DNA of 48,762 nucleotides, taken from Candidatus Saccharimonadota bacterium (GTDB taxonomy: Bacteria; Patescibacteriota; Saccharimonadia; Saccharimonadales; SZUA-47). Under the pieces are notes generated by a model, which saw nothing but the letters and a program-made list of their open reading frames with translations, searched no databases and was not told the DNA's origin. Below are positions 35,470-40,257 of this stretch, piece by piece (the first letter of the stretch is position 1; each line of letters opens with the position of its first letter). The translations under genes were made by a program, and so were the position numbers. The stretch is taken from NCBI GenBank assembly GCA_020428465.1, contig JAGQMY010000025.1:1-48762 (forward strand), read 5' to 3'.

Positions 35470-36360
35470 TTATTTTTTCGAAGTTTCGCGAATATTTTTG
35501 TTTAACCAATAAGCTAATCCTGCAATTGCAGCAACCATGAATAAGGCGAACAGTGTCGCATAGCTCTTTGAAGCAGTACTCGCCTGTGGTGACTCGGTGT
35601 TTGCACCTAAAACATTCTCGTTATTGTTTGAAGATTGTTGGGTGTTTTCGTCGCTCGAGCCTGAACCCTGATTGTTATCTATCATACTAGGACTACTCTC
35701 ATCAGAAGTGTTTGTGATTGATGAGCTGTTACTAACAGAATTACTCTGGCTAGAGGAATGTGAAGATGATGAAGCACCGGAGCCAGAGCCAGAACTTGAG
35801 CTACCTGAGCCCGAGCTACTGCCTGAGCCACTGCCTGAAGTAGGTGGAGTTGGTGTAGGTGTCGGTTGAACAGGCGAAGGAGCGGAAATTACAATCGATG
35901 CTCCATATGTACCACCATTCCATATATTGACGCCAGCACTGGCTATCTGTGAATTTGATCCGAAAGCTAATTGAGCCGTCCCTTCGGCTGTAGCTGTGAA
36001 CTGCAGAGTACCAACTAATTGGCTGCCATTTAGTCCTGTACTTCCAGGTGCAATATAACGCGATATTGTTGCTATGCCAGACGCACATGTAGCTGAGATT
36101 GCATTAGCGAACGCACTACTTGCCACATTTACATTAGTGCAATTTAGTTTGGTTGAATCATAGGACATATTAATTGTAACTACAGATACGTTTGTTCCAT
36201 TCTCATAGATTGATACGTTCAAATTATCCCCGGTCGTAACGGAAGTACTGCTTGGTGACATAGAAAGTGTTGCACTGCCAACCGCTGATGTGCTTGCTGT
36301 CATAACAAAAATCGAAGCAATTACTGCCGTAAAATTTAGAAATTTATGTAAAACTCTCAT
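35470..36360 (-). CDS. Membrane-anchored cohesin-domain protein
   Basis: 296 residues. Signal peptide (about 1-28), cohesin domain (about 29-163) with LSMSPSSTSVTTGDNLNVSI, VVTINMSYDSTKL and the final GTAQLAFGSNSQIAS strand, then a 90-residue Pro/Thr and Ser/Gly-rich spacer, and a C-terminal membrane helix (about 266-286) with a basic tail. Cohesins bind dockerins. The gene immediately upstream (1 nt apart) ends in a dockerin. I infer a surface scaffold with one docking site. No LPXTG is seen, so anchoring is by the helix. Confidence 0.85.
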   Translation of the reverse strand: MRVLHKFLNFTAVIASIFVMTASTSAVGSATLSMSPSSTSVTTGDNLNVSIYENGTNVSVVTINMSYDSTKLNCTNVNVASSAFANAISATCASGIATISRYIAPGSTGLNGSQLVGTLQFTATAEGTAQLAFGSNSQIASAGVNIWNGGTYGASIVISAPSPVQPTPTPTPPTSGSGSGSSSGSGSSSSGSGSGASSSSHSSSQSNSVSNSSSITNTSDESSPSMIDNNQGSGSSDENTQQSSNNNENVLGANTESPQASTASKSYATLFALFMVAAIAGLAYWLNKNIRETSKK

Positions 36361-37866
36361 TTAATTACTCCAATTTGTTAAGACTAGTGATAAATCTAAT
36401 GCATCAACAGTTCCACTTGCGTCTAAGTCACCGTCAGCCAAAGTCATTCCTGTCTTACCCCAGTTACTCAATACAATGCTTAGGTCTAACGCATCAACTT
36501 TACCGCTCCCATCAATATCACCTAGTACGACGACTACAACTCCACTGCCGGCAACCTGTATGAGCTGAACGTTGTCTAGGAAGGCGCTTAATCCGGTTCC
36601 TGCAGTAACTACAACCTGTATCCTGACTTGCGCCACATTTGAGCTTGAAGGTACATAATTAAAATTGAGCATCTCAACCCAGACCGAGCCCTCCGAAGGC
36701 TTGGCTTGAGTAGATAAATAATTGCCGTTAATGTCATATTCATCGATGTAAAAGCCGACTTGGCTAGTCCCGTCGACCGATAATACATTAAGATAACTCT
36801 TAACAACGTAGCTGTTAACAGATGAAATAGGGATTAAGTCAAAGAATAAGTGTGAATCTTGATTAGGATTACTCGTGAGCATAATTGAGTTAGTTGGGCT
36901 TGGATATGAACCATTATTGCCGGTGTCAAGAACGACATTACTCGGTGCGTCAGTTGTCCAGCCGGTTTGGCCGTTTTCGAAACTGCCGTTGTTAACAAGA
37001 TTGGTTCCATTTATAAATGCTTCTGTCATGTTTGTATTGACCAAACCTTGTTGTTGAGCATAGGCAGCTATTTGAGCTAAATCAGATGTATTATATTCAT
37101 AATAATCTGGATTTGAACTAGCATTGCCGTTCAAAATGTCGTGAAAAACTAAGACTAATAGGTAGTTATTAGCTTTAGCGCGGTCTATTTGCAATTTAAT
37201 TTGATCGACGCTCACCCCACCGGTTACCTGGACAACATATGGTAGTAAATCACTGTACGGATATGCATTATTATGGTTATTGTTAGCGTAGTCAACAGTG
37301 TCGGCAAAGGGTCGGTGAACAGCATAATATTTTGCAATCTCTGCTAAACTCTGCATATTCCAGTCACCGTACGGGTCAGCAAAGCTTGTCGCATCAATAC
37401 CGTGGGCTGCCAAATCTGCCTTACTCTGTACAAGTTCATTAATTCGCTCAGCATCTGTTAGTACTATACCGGTGTTTTCGTCCGGAGAAACAAGTTCTGA
37501 GTGGTCGATTGTATGTGATCCTATCTCCCAACCATAAGAATTCTTAACTGATAATATTTGATCCCAAGTCATATATGTCTTATCAGTATCAGCTGCGCAT
37601 GTGTTCGGAGCAGTTGTCATGCCTACGCAACCCGTAATGACAAAACTTGTTCCCGTATATCCATAACTTGCAAGTGTAGGAGCTGCCTGACTTAATACAC
37701 TTGAATATCCGTCATCAAAAGTAAACGAAATTTTCGGTACAACTGCGTTAGTTGCAATAGCTTGGGCTTTTATAAAACCAGATAATGATAATGACGCAAT
37801 TAATGCGATTACTGTGAAAAATATCGTAAATTTACTTTGAATTTTATCAAGAATACTTCTCGGCAC
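36361..37866 (-). CDS. Secreted polysaccharide deacetylase with CBM-like domain and dockerin
   Basis: 501 residues, GTG start. Signal peptide (about 1-38); NodB deacetylase domain (about 44-280) with TFDDG (49-53), metal site HTIDH (118-122), DPYG (164-167) and FHD (H242), all catalytic positions retained; a CBM4/9-like beta domain (about 289-435, NLVNNGSFENGQTGW); and a type I dockerin (449-501) of two F-hand repeats, GDIDGSGKVDALDLSIVL and GDLDASGTVDALDLSLVL, with Ca2+ ligands D450, D452, S454, D461 and equivalents. Likely removes acetyl groups from a GlcNAc polymer. Confidence 0.93.
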   Translation of the reverse strand: MPRSILDKIQSKFTIFFTVIALIASLSLSGFIKAQAIATNAVVPKISFTFDDGYSSVLSQAAPTLASYGYTGTSFVITGCVGMTTAPNTCAADTDKTYMTWDQILSVKNSYGWEIGSHTIDHSELVSPDENTGIVLTDAERINELVQSKADLAAHGIDATSFADPYGDWNMQSLAEIAKYYAVHRPFADTVDYANNNHNNAYPYSDLLPYVVQVTGGVSVDQIKLQIDRAKANNYLLVLVFHDILNGNASSNPDYYEYNTSDLAQIAAYAQQQGLVNTNMTEAFINGTNLVNNGSFENGQTGWTTDAPSNVVLDTGNNGSYPSPTNSIMLTSNPNQDSHLFFDLIPISSVNSYVVKSYLNVLSVDGTSQVGFYIDEYDINGNYLSTQAKPSEGSVWVEMLNFNYVPSSSNVAQVRIQVVVTAGTGLSAFLDNVQLIQVAGSGVVVVVLGDIDGSGKVDALDLSIVLSNWGKTGMTLADGDLDASGTVDALDLSLVLTNWSN

Positions 37867-38397: not shown

Positions 38398-38991
38398 ATG
38401 AAAAAAATCACTAAGCCTAATAATTTATCAAAGTTGAGTATTGCAGGTATTTTGTTCCTGACTGCAGGGCTAATATTCGCTATCCAACCGTTTCAAAGGT
38501 ATCAAACAGATAAACAGGTGTCTGCAACTCCTTTCCCCGAATCAACTCAAATAATAGCGGCTCCAGAATTTGAGTATATTAGTGGTCGTCCCATACATAT
38601 AACACTGCCATCGATTGGTATTTCGCTTGAAGTTATTGACGGAAGCTACAATAAAAACAATAACAGCTGGACTCTTAGCAAAGATAAAGCTCAGTTTGCT
38701 CTTTTGAGTACTCTTGCGAATAACCTGCAGGGTAACACTTTTATCTACGGGCATAACAACAAATACGTTTTTAGAGATTTACATAAAATTACCGAAGGCG
38801 ACGAAGCAATTGTAACAACTGATAATGGACATGAGTTTGTCTATAAAATGACAGGAGTACACGTAGTTGATCCAACCGATACGTCGATTTTTAAATACAG
38901 TGGTCCACCTATATTAACGGTTCAGACATGCAGCGGTGCTTGGTACGAAAATAGAAGTCTATACACATTCGAATTTGTTGAGGTACGTTAG
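38398..38991 (+). CDS. Sortase family transpeptidase
   Basis: 197 residues. N-terminal membrane anchor (about 11-30), sortase barrel with His in FIYGHNN (H119), catalytic Cys in LTVQTCSG (C178) and Arg in ENRSLYTF (R186). Cleaves LPXTG-type signals between Thr and Gly. The only LPXTG protein in the window is the microprotein just upstream, which is its likely substrate. Class D/E-like by general shape, but the class is not certain. SD-like AGGA at 38384. The GT2 gene starts 3 nt downstream. Confidence 0.92.
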   Translation: MKKITKPNNLSKLSIAGILFLTAGLIFAIQPFQRYQTDKQVSATPFPESTQIIAAPEFEYISGRPIHITLPSIGISLEVIDGSYNKNNNSWTLSKDKAQFALLSTLANNLQGNTFIYGHNNKYVFRDLHKITEGDEAIVTTDNGHEFVYKMTGVHVVDPTDTSIFKYSGPPILTVQTCSGAWYENRSLYTFEFVEVR

Positions 38992-38994
38992 TCT

Positions 38995-40257
38995 ATGGAA
39001 AAGATAATATTTTTCATTTTTATCAGCTTCAGTTTTGTTAATATTATGCATATTTTTGCTTATTTAATTGGTGCAAATTTGTATGATATTTGGCAGTTGA
39101 AATACAACAGTAAAGTCGGTACTAAAATCCGAAAAAGAGTTCGACCGCTTGTAAGTATAATCATACCTGCCCACAACGAAGAAAACGGCATTATCAAAAC
39201 TCTCGAATCAGCATGCAGAAGCAGTGTGAGGAAGCTCCAAATAATAGTTATTGACGATGCATCAAATGACAACACTAAAAAGCTGGTTAGACAATTTATC
39301 GCAAATAATCCTAAAAAACCGGTTGAGTTAACATACCTACGAACTAATAAAGGTAAAGCAGTAGCACTGAATCACGCATTGAAAAATAGAGTTCGTGGTG
39401 AATTCGTGATGACACTTGATGCTGATTCTGAAATAGATAAGTATGCTGTACGCAGAGCTTTAAGATATTTCAATGACCCAAATGTAGCCGGAGTGGCAGC
39501 TAATGTTCGAGTTAAGCCGAGAGGTTCAGCTATCGGGCTACTGCAAATGCTTGAGCATATGGTCGGATATCGTTCGAAAAAATTCTACACAATAACAAAC
39601 AGTGAATTCATAGTTGGGGGTGTTGCTTCAACTTACAGATTCGATGTATTAAAGTATGTGAAATTTTATGATATCGACACTCAGACTGAAGATATTGGTC
39701 TAAGCATGAAAATAGCTTCTTTGGGTAATAAAGCACATCGACTTATATACGCGTCTGATGTTCTTGCATTTACGGAGGGAGTTCCAAATACTAAAGCCTT
39801 GTTTAAGCAAAGATTCCGCTGGAAATTGGGTATGATACAGAATCTAATTAAATACCGAAGATATCTATCCAGTTCAAACAATAAGTATAGTCGAAGCCTT
39901 ACTTTTTATAGGTATCCAATGGCCTTTTTTAGCGAATTAATGCTGCTATTCGAGCCATTAGTTCTTATATACGTAATATTTCTAACCATTAAATTCATGG
40001 AACCAGGATTCTTTATTGGTGCTTATGTCACGATAAATCTGTATCTTGCAATGGTTGTAATGCACGACGAGCATCTCAATTTTCGCAAAAGAATAGCTAC
40101 AGCGCTATATCTACCTGTATCTTATTTTGTGTTTTATCTAATGAACGCTGTTCAGTTTGTTGCTATAGTTAGGTGTTTAATTGATCCGAAAAGATTGACA
40201 TTGCGTAAAAATATCAGCAGCACATGGACTTCACCGGAACGCGCAAACTCCGTTTAG
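38995..40257 (+). CDS. Processive GT2 polysaccharide synthase (PgaC/IcaA/HasA-like)
   Basis: 420 residues. N-terminal helix (about 4-28), GT-A domain with VIDDAS (D87, D88), TLDADS (D142-D144), TEDIG (231-233) and KQRFRWKLG (QxxRW, 272-276), then three C-terminal helices. The TED and QRFRW signatures mark membrane-embedded processive synthases that make and export polymers such as poly-N-acetylglucosamine, chitin or hyaluronan. No PilZ or other regulatory domain. The deacetylase at 36361 would suit a GlcNAc product; the exact sugar is inferred, not shown. Confidence 0.88.
   Translation: MEKIIFFIFISFSFVNIMHIFAYLIGANLYDIWQLKYNSKVGTKIRKRVRPLVSIIIPAHNEENGIIKTLESACRSSVRKLQIIVIDDASNDNTKKLVRQFIANNPKKPVELTYLRTNKGKAVALNHALKNRVRGEFVMTLDADSEIDKYAVRRALRYFNDPNVAGVAANVRVKPRGSAIGLLQMLEHMVGYRSKKFYTITNSEFIVGGVASTYRFDVLKYVKFYDIDTQTEDIGLSMKIASLGNKAHRLIYASDVLAFTEGVPNTKALFKQRFRWKLGMIQNLIKYRRYLSSSNNKYSRSLTFYRYPMAFFSELMLLFEPLVLIYVIFLTIKFMEPGFFIGAYVTINLYLAMVVMHDEHLNFRKRIATALYLPVSYFVFYLMNAVQFVAIVRCLIDPKRLTLRKNISSTWTSPERANSV

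Follow-up and report, generated by a model that had tools for sequence, protein, structure and literature searches.

Results

The window analyzed here is a stretch of 48,762 nucleotides from the small genome of a bacterium related to Saccharibacteria, and two abutting genes on its minus strand are the subject of this analysis. The upstream gene (36361..37866, −; GTG start) encodes a predicted secreted NodB-family polysaccharide deacetylase of 501 aa with a C-terminal dockerin, as judged from the open reading frame, Pfam matches, and motifs common to two orthologues. The downstream gene (35470..36360, −) encodes a putative membrane-anchored single-cohesin protein of 296 aa, as judged from the open reading frame and matches to a profile of its relatives (111.5 and 113 bits). 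The initial annotation of this DNA had placed both genes correctly but separated them by 1 nt; instead, the TAA of the deacetylase gene (36361-36363) and the ATG of the cohesin gene (36358-36360) directly abut, with 0 nt between them, and a GGAG ribosome-binding site (36368-36371) lies 7 nt upstream of this ATG (junction, 36358..36371, −). The two open reading frames share one frame across this junction (36358-36363), and read-through of the TAA would fuse the dockerin, the signal peptide, and the cohesin; the gene pair at locus L082 likewise has zero gap between stop and start. Probably, this in-frame abutment reflects only tight coupling.

The deacetylase begins with a hydrophobic, signal-like N-terminus, followed by a NodB/Polysacc_deac_1 domain (37330..37737, −; residues 44-179 as matched; PF01522, E 3.4e-15). 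The motifs TFDDG, GSHTxxH, PYGD, and FHxI are invariant in three orthologues (the window deacetylase and two others), and the Asp-Asp and HxxxH metal motifs together with the PF01522 match assign the protein to the NodB superfamily. The next module is a single CBM_4_9-like β-sandwich (36562..37005, −; residues 288-435), which matches a module model built here at 1.1e-56 and PF02018 at residues 289-420 with an E value of 0.0014, which is under the Pfam cut-off. The protein ends in a type I dockerin (36382..36525, −; residues 448-495) composed of two near-identical calcium-loop/helix repeats (DIDGSGKVDALDLSIVLSNW and DLDASGTVDALDLSLVLTNW). This dockerin matches PF00404 (Dockerin_1) with 8.6e-6 and 26.3 bits and, in a second search, with 30.9 bits (cut-off, 22.9), and is modeled by AlphaFold2 with a pLDDT of ~92 in a chain joined to the cohesin. 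Its contact positions are Ala-Leu, as in Clostridium cellulolyticum. Thus, the proposal in the initial annotation of a NodB deacetylase ending in a two-repeat dockerin is borne out by both Pfam matches.

The partner protein starts with a putative signal peptide (36280..36360, −; about residues 1-27; hydropathy peak of 1.65 at residue 10), followed by the cohesin domain (35884..36282, −; residues 27-159), a Pro/Ser/Gly-rich spacer (35575..35883, −; about residues 160-262), and a C-terminal hydrophobic helix with a short basic tail (35503..35559, −; residues 268-286; hydropathy 2.05). This layout is as initially annotated, and, here and in the relatives, signal peptides and membrane helices were called by hydropathy only. 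Because a sortase gene adjoins, we considered sortase-dependent anchoring of the cohesin protein; however, no LPxT[GAN] motif was found in the last 90 residues of this protein or of the other cohesin proteins examined, and we rejected this type of anchoring for the window protein.

Searched alone, the 296-aa protein has no cohesin match in Pfam, NCBIfam, or PDB sequences, and a search of the whole window genome with PF00963 gave no match. The protein is, therefore, too divergent for direct searches, and the cohesin assignment needed its relatives. An iterative profile seeded with the 296-aa protein and two relatives, and searched against dockerin-centered loci, recovered 60 cohesin-like domains in 48 proteins near dockerins. 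PF00963 is matched individually by 46 of the 57 aligned relative domains (best, 1.1e-14), and the window protein matches the profile of its relatives at 111-113 bits. When the alignment profile was compared with the PDB, the 19 best matches were all cohesins, with 1g1k at the top (4e-8). AlphaFold2 models the cohesin domain alone with a pLDDT of 87 and a pTM of 0.80, and all of the 50 best PDB matches listed by Foldseek for the fold predicted in a joined dockerin-cohesin chain are cohesins (best listed match, 6kgc chain E; 3.3e-9; TM 0.76 by target). By homology and predicted fold, the 296-aa protein is a divergent cohesin. The cohesin claim of the initial annotation consequently stands on the relatives, the profile, and the predicted fold, while the PF00963 match expected for the window protein itself is lacking.

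In total, the window genome (997 kb, 98.6% complete) contains a single dockerin and a single cohesin domain. Among 393 genomes of the class, many of which are draft assemblies, 87 have a dockerin, 65 have a cohesin of the family of the window protein, and 43 have both (odds ratio, 12.6; p 1.5e-17; this statistic ignores shared ancestry). In 41 of these 43 genomes, dockerin and cohesin are located within 4 kb of each other. Exactly one dockerin and one cohesin are present in 25/393 genomes, counting G235 despite a second, weak cohesin fragment; the distance is at most 2.7 kb in 25/25 of them. In a sample of the phylum (371 genomes), dockerins were found in 97 genomes, cohesins in 133, and both in 62 (odds ratio, 5.1; p 5e-11, again ignoring shared ancestry), and the modules of a pair are often ~100-150 bases apart. 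The sole dockerin and the sole cohesin of the genome, the abutting genes, the membrane helix, and the recurrence across the class, which a synteny survey of the kind proposed initially brought out, support a putative dedicated surface docking pair in the window genome. Genomically, this reading, which the initial annotation had also advanced, is well supported. Cohesin-dockerin binding can, as a general matter, bridge cells, and the main partner of the dockerin could be a cohesin on another cell (the host or another epibiont), such that the deacetylase would link cells. We consider this very unlikely because the gene beside that of the deacetylase encodes the only cohesin of the genome and the same pattern repeats in the class.

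The cohesin family is not restricted to deacetylases. It follows Ig-like/fn3 dockerin proteins at four loci (L038, L054, L082, and L114), a GH16-CBM6 dockerin protein at one (L098), and CBM-NodB dockerin proteins at two (L050 and L061). At L076, the cohesin gene comes after a dockerin protein without a recognized catalytic domain, which looks lysozyme-like. A terminal membrane helix is present in 38 of the 45 cohesin proteins not flagged as dockerin-bearing; two of the other seven carry a dockerin missed by the search pattern, and most of the remainder are truncated or broken. In adaptors, which combine a cohesin with a dockerin, the C-terminal membrane helix is generally absent. The gene order at L104 (dockerin protein, cohesin-dockerin adaptor, cohesin with membrane helix) reads as a putative relay. 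As related genomes use the pairing with several other kinds of cargo, it appears to be a general means by which these bacteria attach exported proteins to their surface. No relative was found in a search of viral contigs and plasmids.

In one genus (g41), the layout is cellulosome-like within a genome of ~1.1 Mb: scaffoldins that have a dockerin of their own and three to five cohesin matches adjoin one- and two-cohesin proteins (L058:3219-9836, L063:1-6400, and L086:3170-9895), and the several dockerin proteins of these genomes include GH25 muramidases, β-helix proteins, and Ig-like proteins.

The deacetylase family, with relatives taken from named Saccharibacteria assemblies and the genomes of the class, exists in two forms. 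Fifteen relatives have two or more CBM-like modules and neither a dockerin nor an adjoining cohesin gene; seven deacetylases (that of the window, those in L080, L121, L129, and L131, and a second copy each in L120 and L124) combine a single CBM-like module with a dockerin, and each lies beside a cohesin gene. A frame-broken eighth dockerin form, which we counted apart, agrees. In this locus (L139:1244-3700), the deacetylase-dockerin and cohesin genes are both frameshifted and a TGA occupies the position of a Trp in the relatives; these breaks are probably assembly or sequencing errors. Both forms lie side by side in L120 and L124. The form changes three times on the best tree and at least two to three times on most bootstrap trees; still, the dockerin-bearing deacetylases may have one origin. 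Since the second CBM-like module of the dockerin-less, pair-less relatives occupies the place of the dockerin, the comparison suggests that a tether replaced polymer binding as the means of holding the deacetylase. G003, the other sequenced species of the window genus, has neither the pair nor the deacetylase nor the neighboring glycosyltransferase, indicating that the locus is accessory or recently gained.

A dockerin without a detected cohesin was found in 44 genomes of the class, mostly in one family (f2) and chiefly in one genus (g14; 24/44); these genomes may use something else. At two g14 loci (L041:4979-10349 and L046:2697-8037), dockerins are present on a papain-like peptidase and an Ig-like protein of 276 aa, and the dockerin genes are followed by a gene for a membrane-anchored protein of 350 aa that has a Pro/Thr-rich spacer and no recognized cohesin. 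These loci may encode a docking system whose receptor is of another type or has diverged strongly. When the window dockerin and cohesin were modeled by AlphaFold2 as one joined chain (TAA read as a residue; 11 unpaired rows), both modules were confident, while their relative placement was not (pTM 0.59). These dockerin-only genomes and this model could speak for an alternative in which the dockerin is a calcium module without binding function, the cohesin-like protein is simply a β-sandwich protein of the surface, and the genes are adjacent only because they are co-expressed. However, this alternative is at odds with the close one-to-one linkage of the modules while the cargo varies, with the split of a single enzyme family into forms with and without the dockerin and cohesin, and with the chained adaptors that bear both modules, and we regard non-binding modules as improbable.

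The gene pair is divergently transcribed from a sortase gene (38398..38991, +; PF04203, 6e-20), which is kept beside a glycosyltransferase gene in relatives. This neighboring gene (38995..40257, +) encodes a processive, PgaC/IcaA-like GT2 glycosyltransferase (PF00535, 1.1e-29; TIGR03937, 4.6e-46). A sortase gene directly upstream of the GT2 gene, beside the deacetylase gene, is an arrangement of many Saccharibacteria (38398-40257 in the window; L122-L137), and the two genes lie near both deacetylase forms in many, though not all, loci. The best NCBIfam matches of the deacetylase are the exopolysaccharide deacetylases HfsH, IcaB, and PgaB. Yet, the deacetylase misses the equivalog cut-offs for poly-N-acetylglucosamine (PNAG) deacetylases (IcaB, 33.0 versus 248.35 bits; PgaB, 30.3 versus 321.9 bits), and the GT2 protein misses that for the PNAG synthase (TIGR03937, 157.6 versus 422.3 bits). 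Because both proteins are far under these cut-offs, the polymer and the activity are guesses. Based on the sortase and the PgaC/IcaA-like GT2 accompanying the deacetylase, the likely substrate is the cell's own exopolysaccharide, which the deacetylase probably trims. The editing of an envelope polysaccharide, as put forward initially, thereby gains from the genes that adjoin the pair in the window and its relatives.

The same docking pair could act on another substrate, i.e., peptidoglycan or the glycans of another cell (host wall or chitin). Deacetylases of peptidoglycan and of chitin are known among NodB enzymes, related genomes encode dockerin-bearing GH25 muramidases (L057 and L065), and the dockerin deacetylases of L050 and L061 have no adjoining GT2 gene. 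Against this stand the PgaC/IcaA-like GT2 and sortase genes that adjoin the deacetylase gene in the window and most relatives and the exopolysaccharide deacetylases as best NCBIfam matches; we therefore see a substrate of this kind as a serious but lesser alternative.

Discussion

As a whole, these observations are best explained by a plug-and-socket pair that keeps a deacetylase on the surface of the producing cell; there, the enzyme would modify exopolysaccharide of the same cell. We consider this explanation probable. In this model, the deacetylase would be exported by means of its signal-like N-terminus. Its type I dockerin would bind the single cohesin of its co-translated partner, as suggested by what is known of these families, the one-to-one occurrence, and synteny. 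As predicted from its sequence, the partner would be anchored to the cytoplasmic membrane through its C-terminal helix and expose the cohesin outward on a flexible spacer. Caught by a membrane-held cohesin, the deacetylase would stay at the surface of its own cell and there, judged from gene context, most likely de-N-acetylate a hexosamine-containing exopolysaccharide made by the neighboring GT2.

More broadly, we lean toward the view that Patescibacteria, despite genomes of ~1 Mb, have their own compact docking system in wide use, and that exopolysaccharide deacetylases acquired a docking module in place of one that binds polymer. If so, the parts of such a system would be an exported dockerin protein, optional cohesin-dockerin adaptors, and a membrane-helix protein with the terminal cohesin, all from neighboring genes. 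The cargo (deacetylases, Ig-like proteins, and muramidases) would be exchangeable, and some genera would also have multi-cohesin scaffoldins. Little is known about how ultrasmall Patescibacteria dress their surface and retain exported enzymes. A side-by-side pair would be a simple mechanism that is open to testing, and the partner gene would at once reveal the anchor of each cargo. The loci also offer natural, minimal cohesin-dockerin pairs of putatively new specificity. Moreover, deacetylated exopolysaccharide becomes a possible part of attachment in Patescibacteria. A dockerin protein is among the essential proteins of Southlakia epibionticum (PMC10633639).

The initial annotation had regarded such a pair in Patescibacteria as new. 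However, by gene content the putative pair is common in the class and not special to the window cell, and a "simple, two-subunit cellulosome" was previously reported, in one sentence and as cellulose-degrading, for the Saccharibacterium Ca. T. rhizospherense (Starr et al. 2018, PMC6031116). Apart from this sentence, cohesins were not found described as a Saccharibacteria feature in the parts of the literature searched. By analogy with that report, the window pair could be a minimal cellulosome that attaches to and degrades plant or microbial cellulose. Yet, Pfam detects neither a cellulase nor a cellulose-binding scaffold in the window pair. In addition, in genome G216, which is very probably Ca. 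T. rhizospherense, the only dockerin is on a CBM-NodB deacetylase (L061:4792-7148) beside a single, membrane-anchored cohesin. We therefore hold a minimal cellulosome to be highly unlikely. A cellulosome in the full sense, i.e., a multi-cohesin scaffoldin with several dockerin enzymes, was likewise rejected for the window genome with its one dockerin and one cohesin. The G216 arrangement calls the published cellulosome reading into question; the pair of Ca. T. rhizospherense appears to be better read as a deacetylase docking pair, although the authors may have meant other genes.

The putative docking pair resembles several known systems and differs from each. The published pair of Ca. T. rhizospherense is, like that of the window, a two-gene cohesin-dockerin pair in Saccharibacteria, whereas the deacetylase, the pairing rule, and the spread across the group are not part of the passages of PMC6031116 considered here. 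Archaeal cohesins and dockerins (Archaeoglobus fulgidus and ANME; PMC9012536) also form pairs outside cellulosomes, and their binding has been verified, as cited there; in contrast to the window, the passages of that paper considered here hold no tie to a polysaccharide deacetylase locus. The type I cohesin-dockerin system of Clostridium cellulolyticum (PDB 1g1k and 2vn5) gave the best sequence-profile matches to the cohesin family. There, many enzymes assemble on a multi-cohesin, cellulose-binding scaffoldin, while the window has one enzyme and one cohesin. OlpA of Clostridium thermocellum is held by S-layer domains. With its single cohesin, OlpA (PDB 3ul4), which is a fold match, holds a dockerin protein at the surface, as proposed for the window protein; the latter differs by its C-terminal membrane helix and its dedicated neighboring enzyme. 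The PgaBC and IcaAB poly-β-1,6-GlcNAc loci have, like the window, a processive GT2 beside a NodB deacetylase, while the deacetylase and the GT2 of the window both score below the curated cut-offs. A lipid anchor holds PgaB, and no dockerin is known to us from the PgaBC and IcaAB loci. Finally, the glycosidase cohesins of Clostridium perfringens (NagJ; PDB 2jh2 and 2ozn) are, like the window cohesin, non-cellulosomal single cohesins that link carbohydrate enzymes; in NagJ the cohesin is part of the enzyme, whereas in the window it is the putative membrane anchor.
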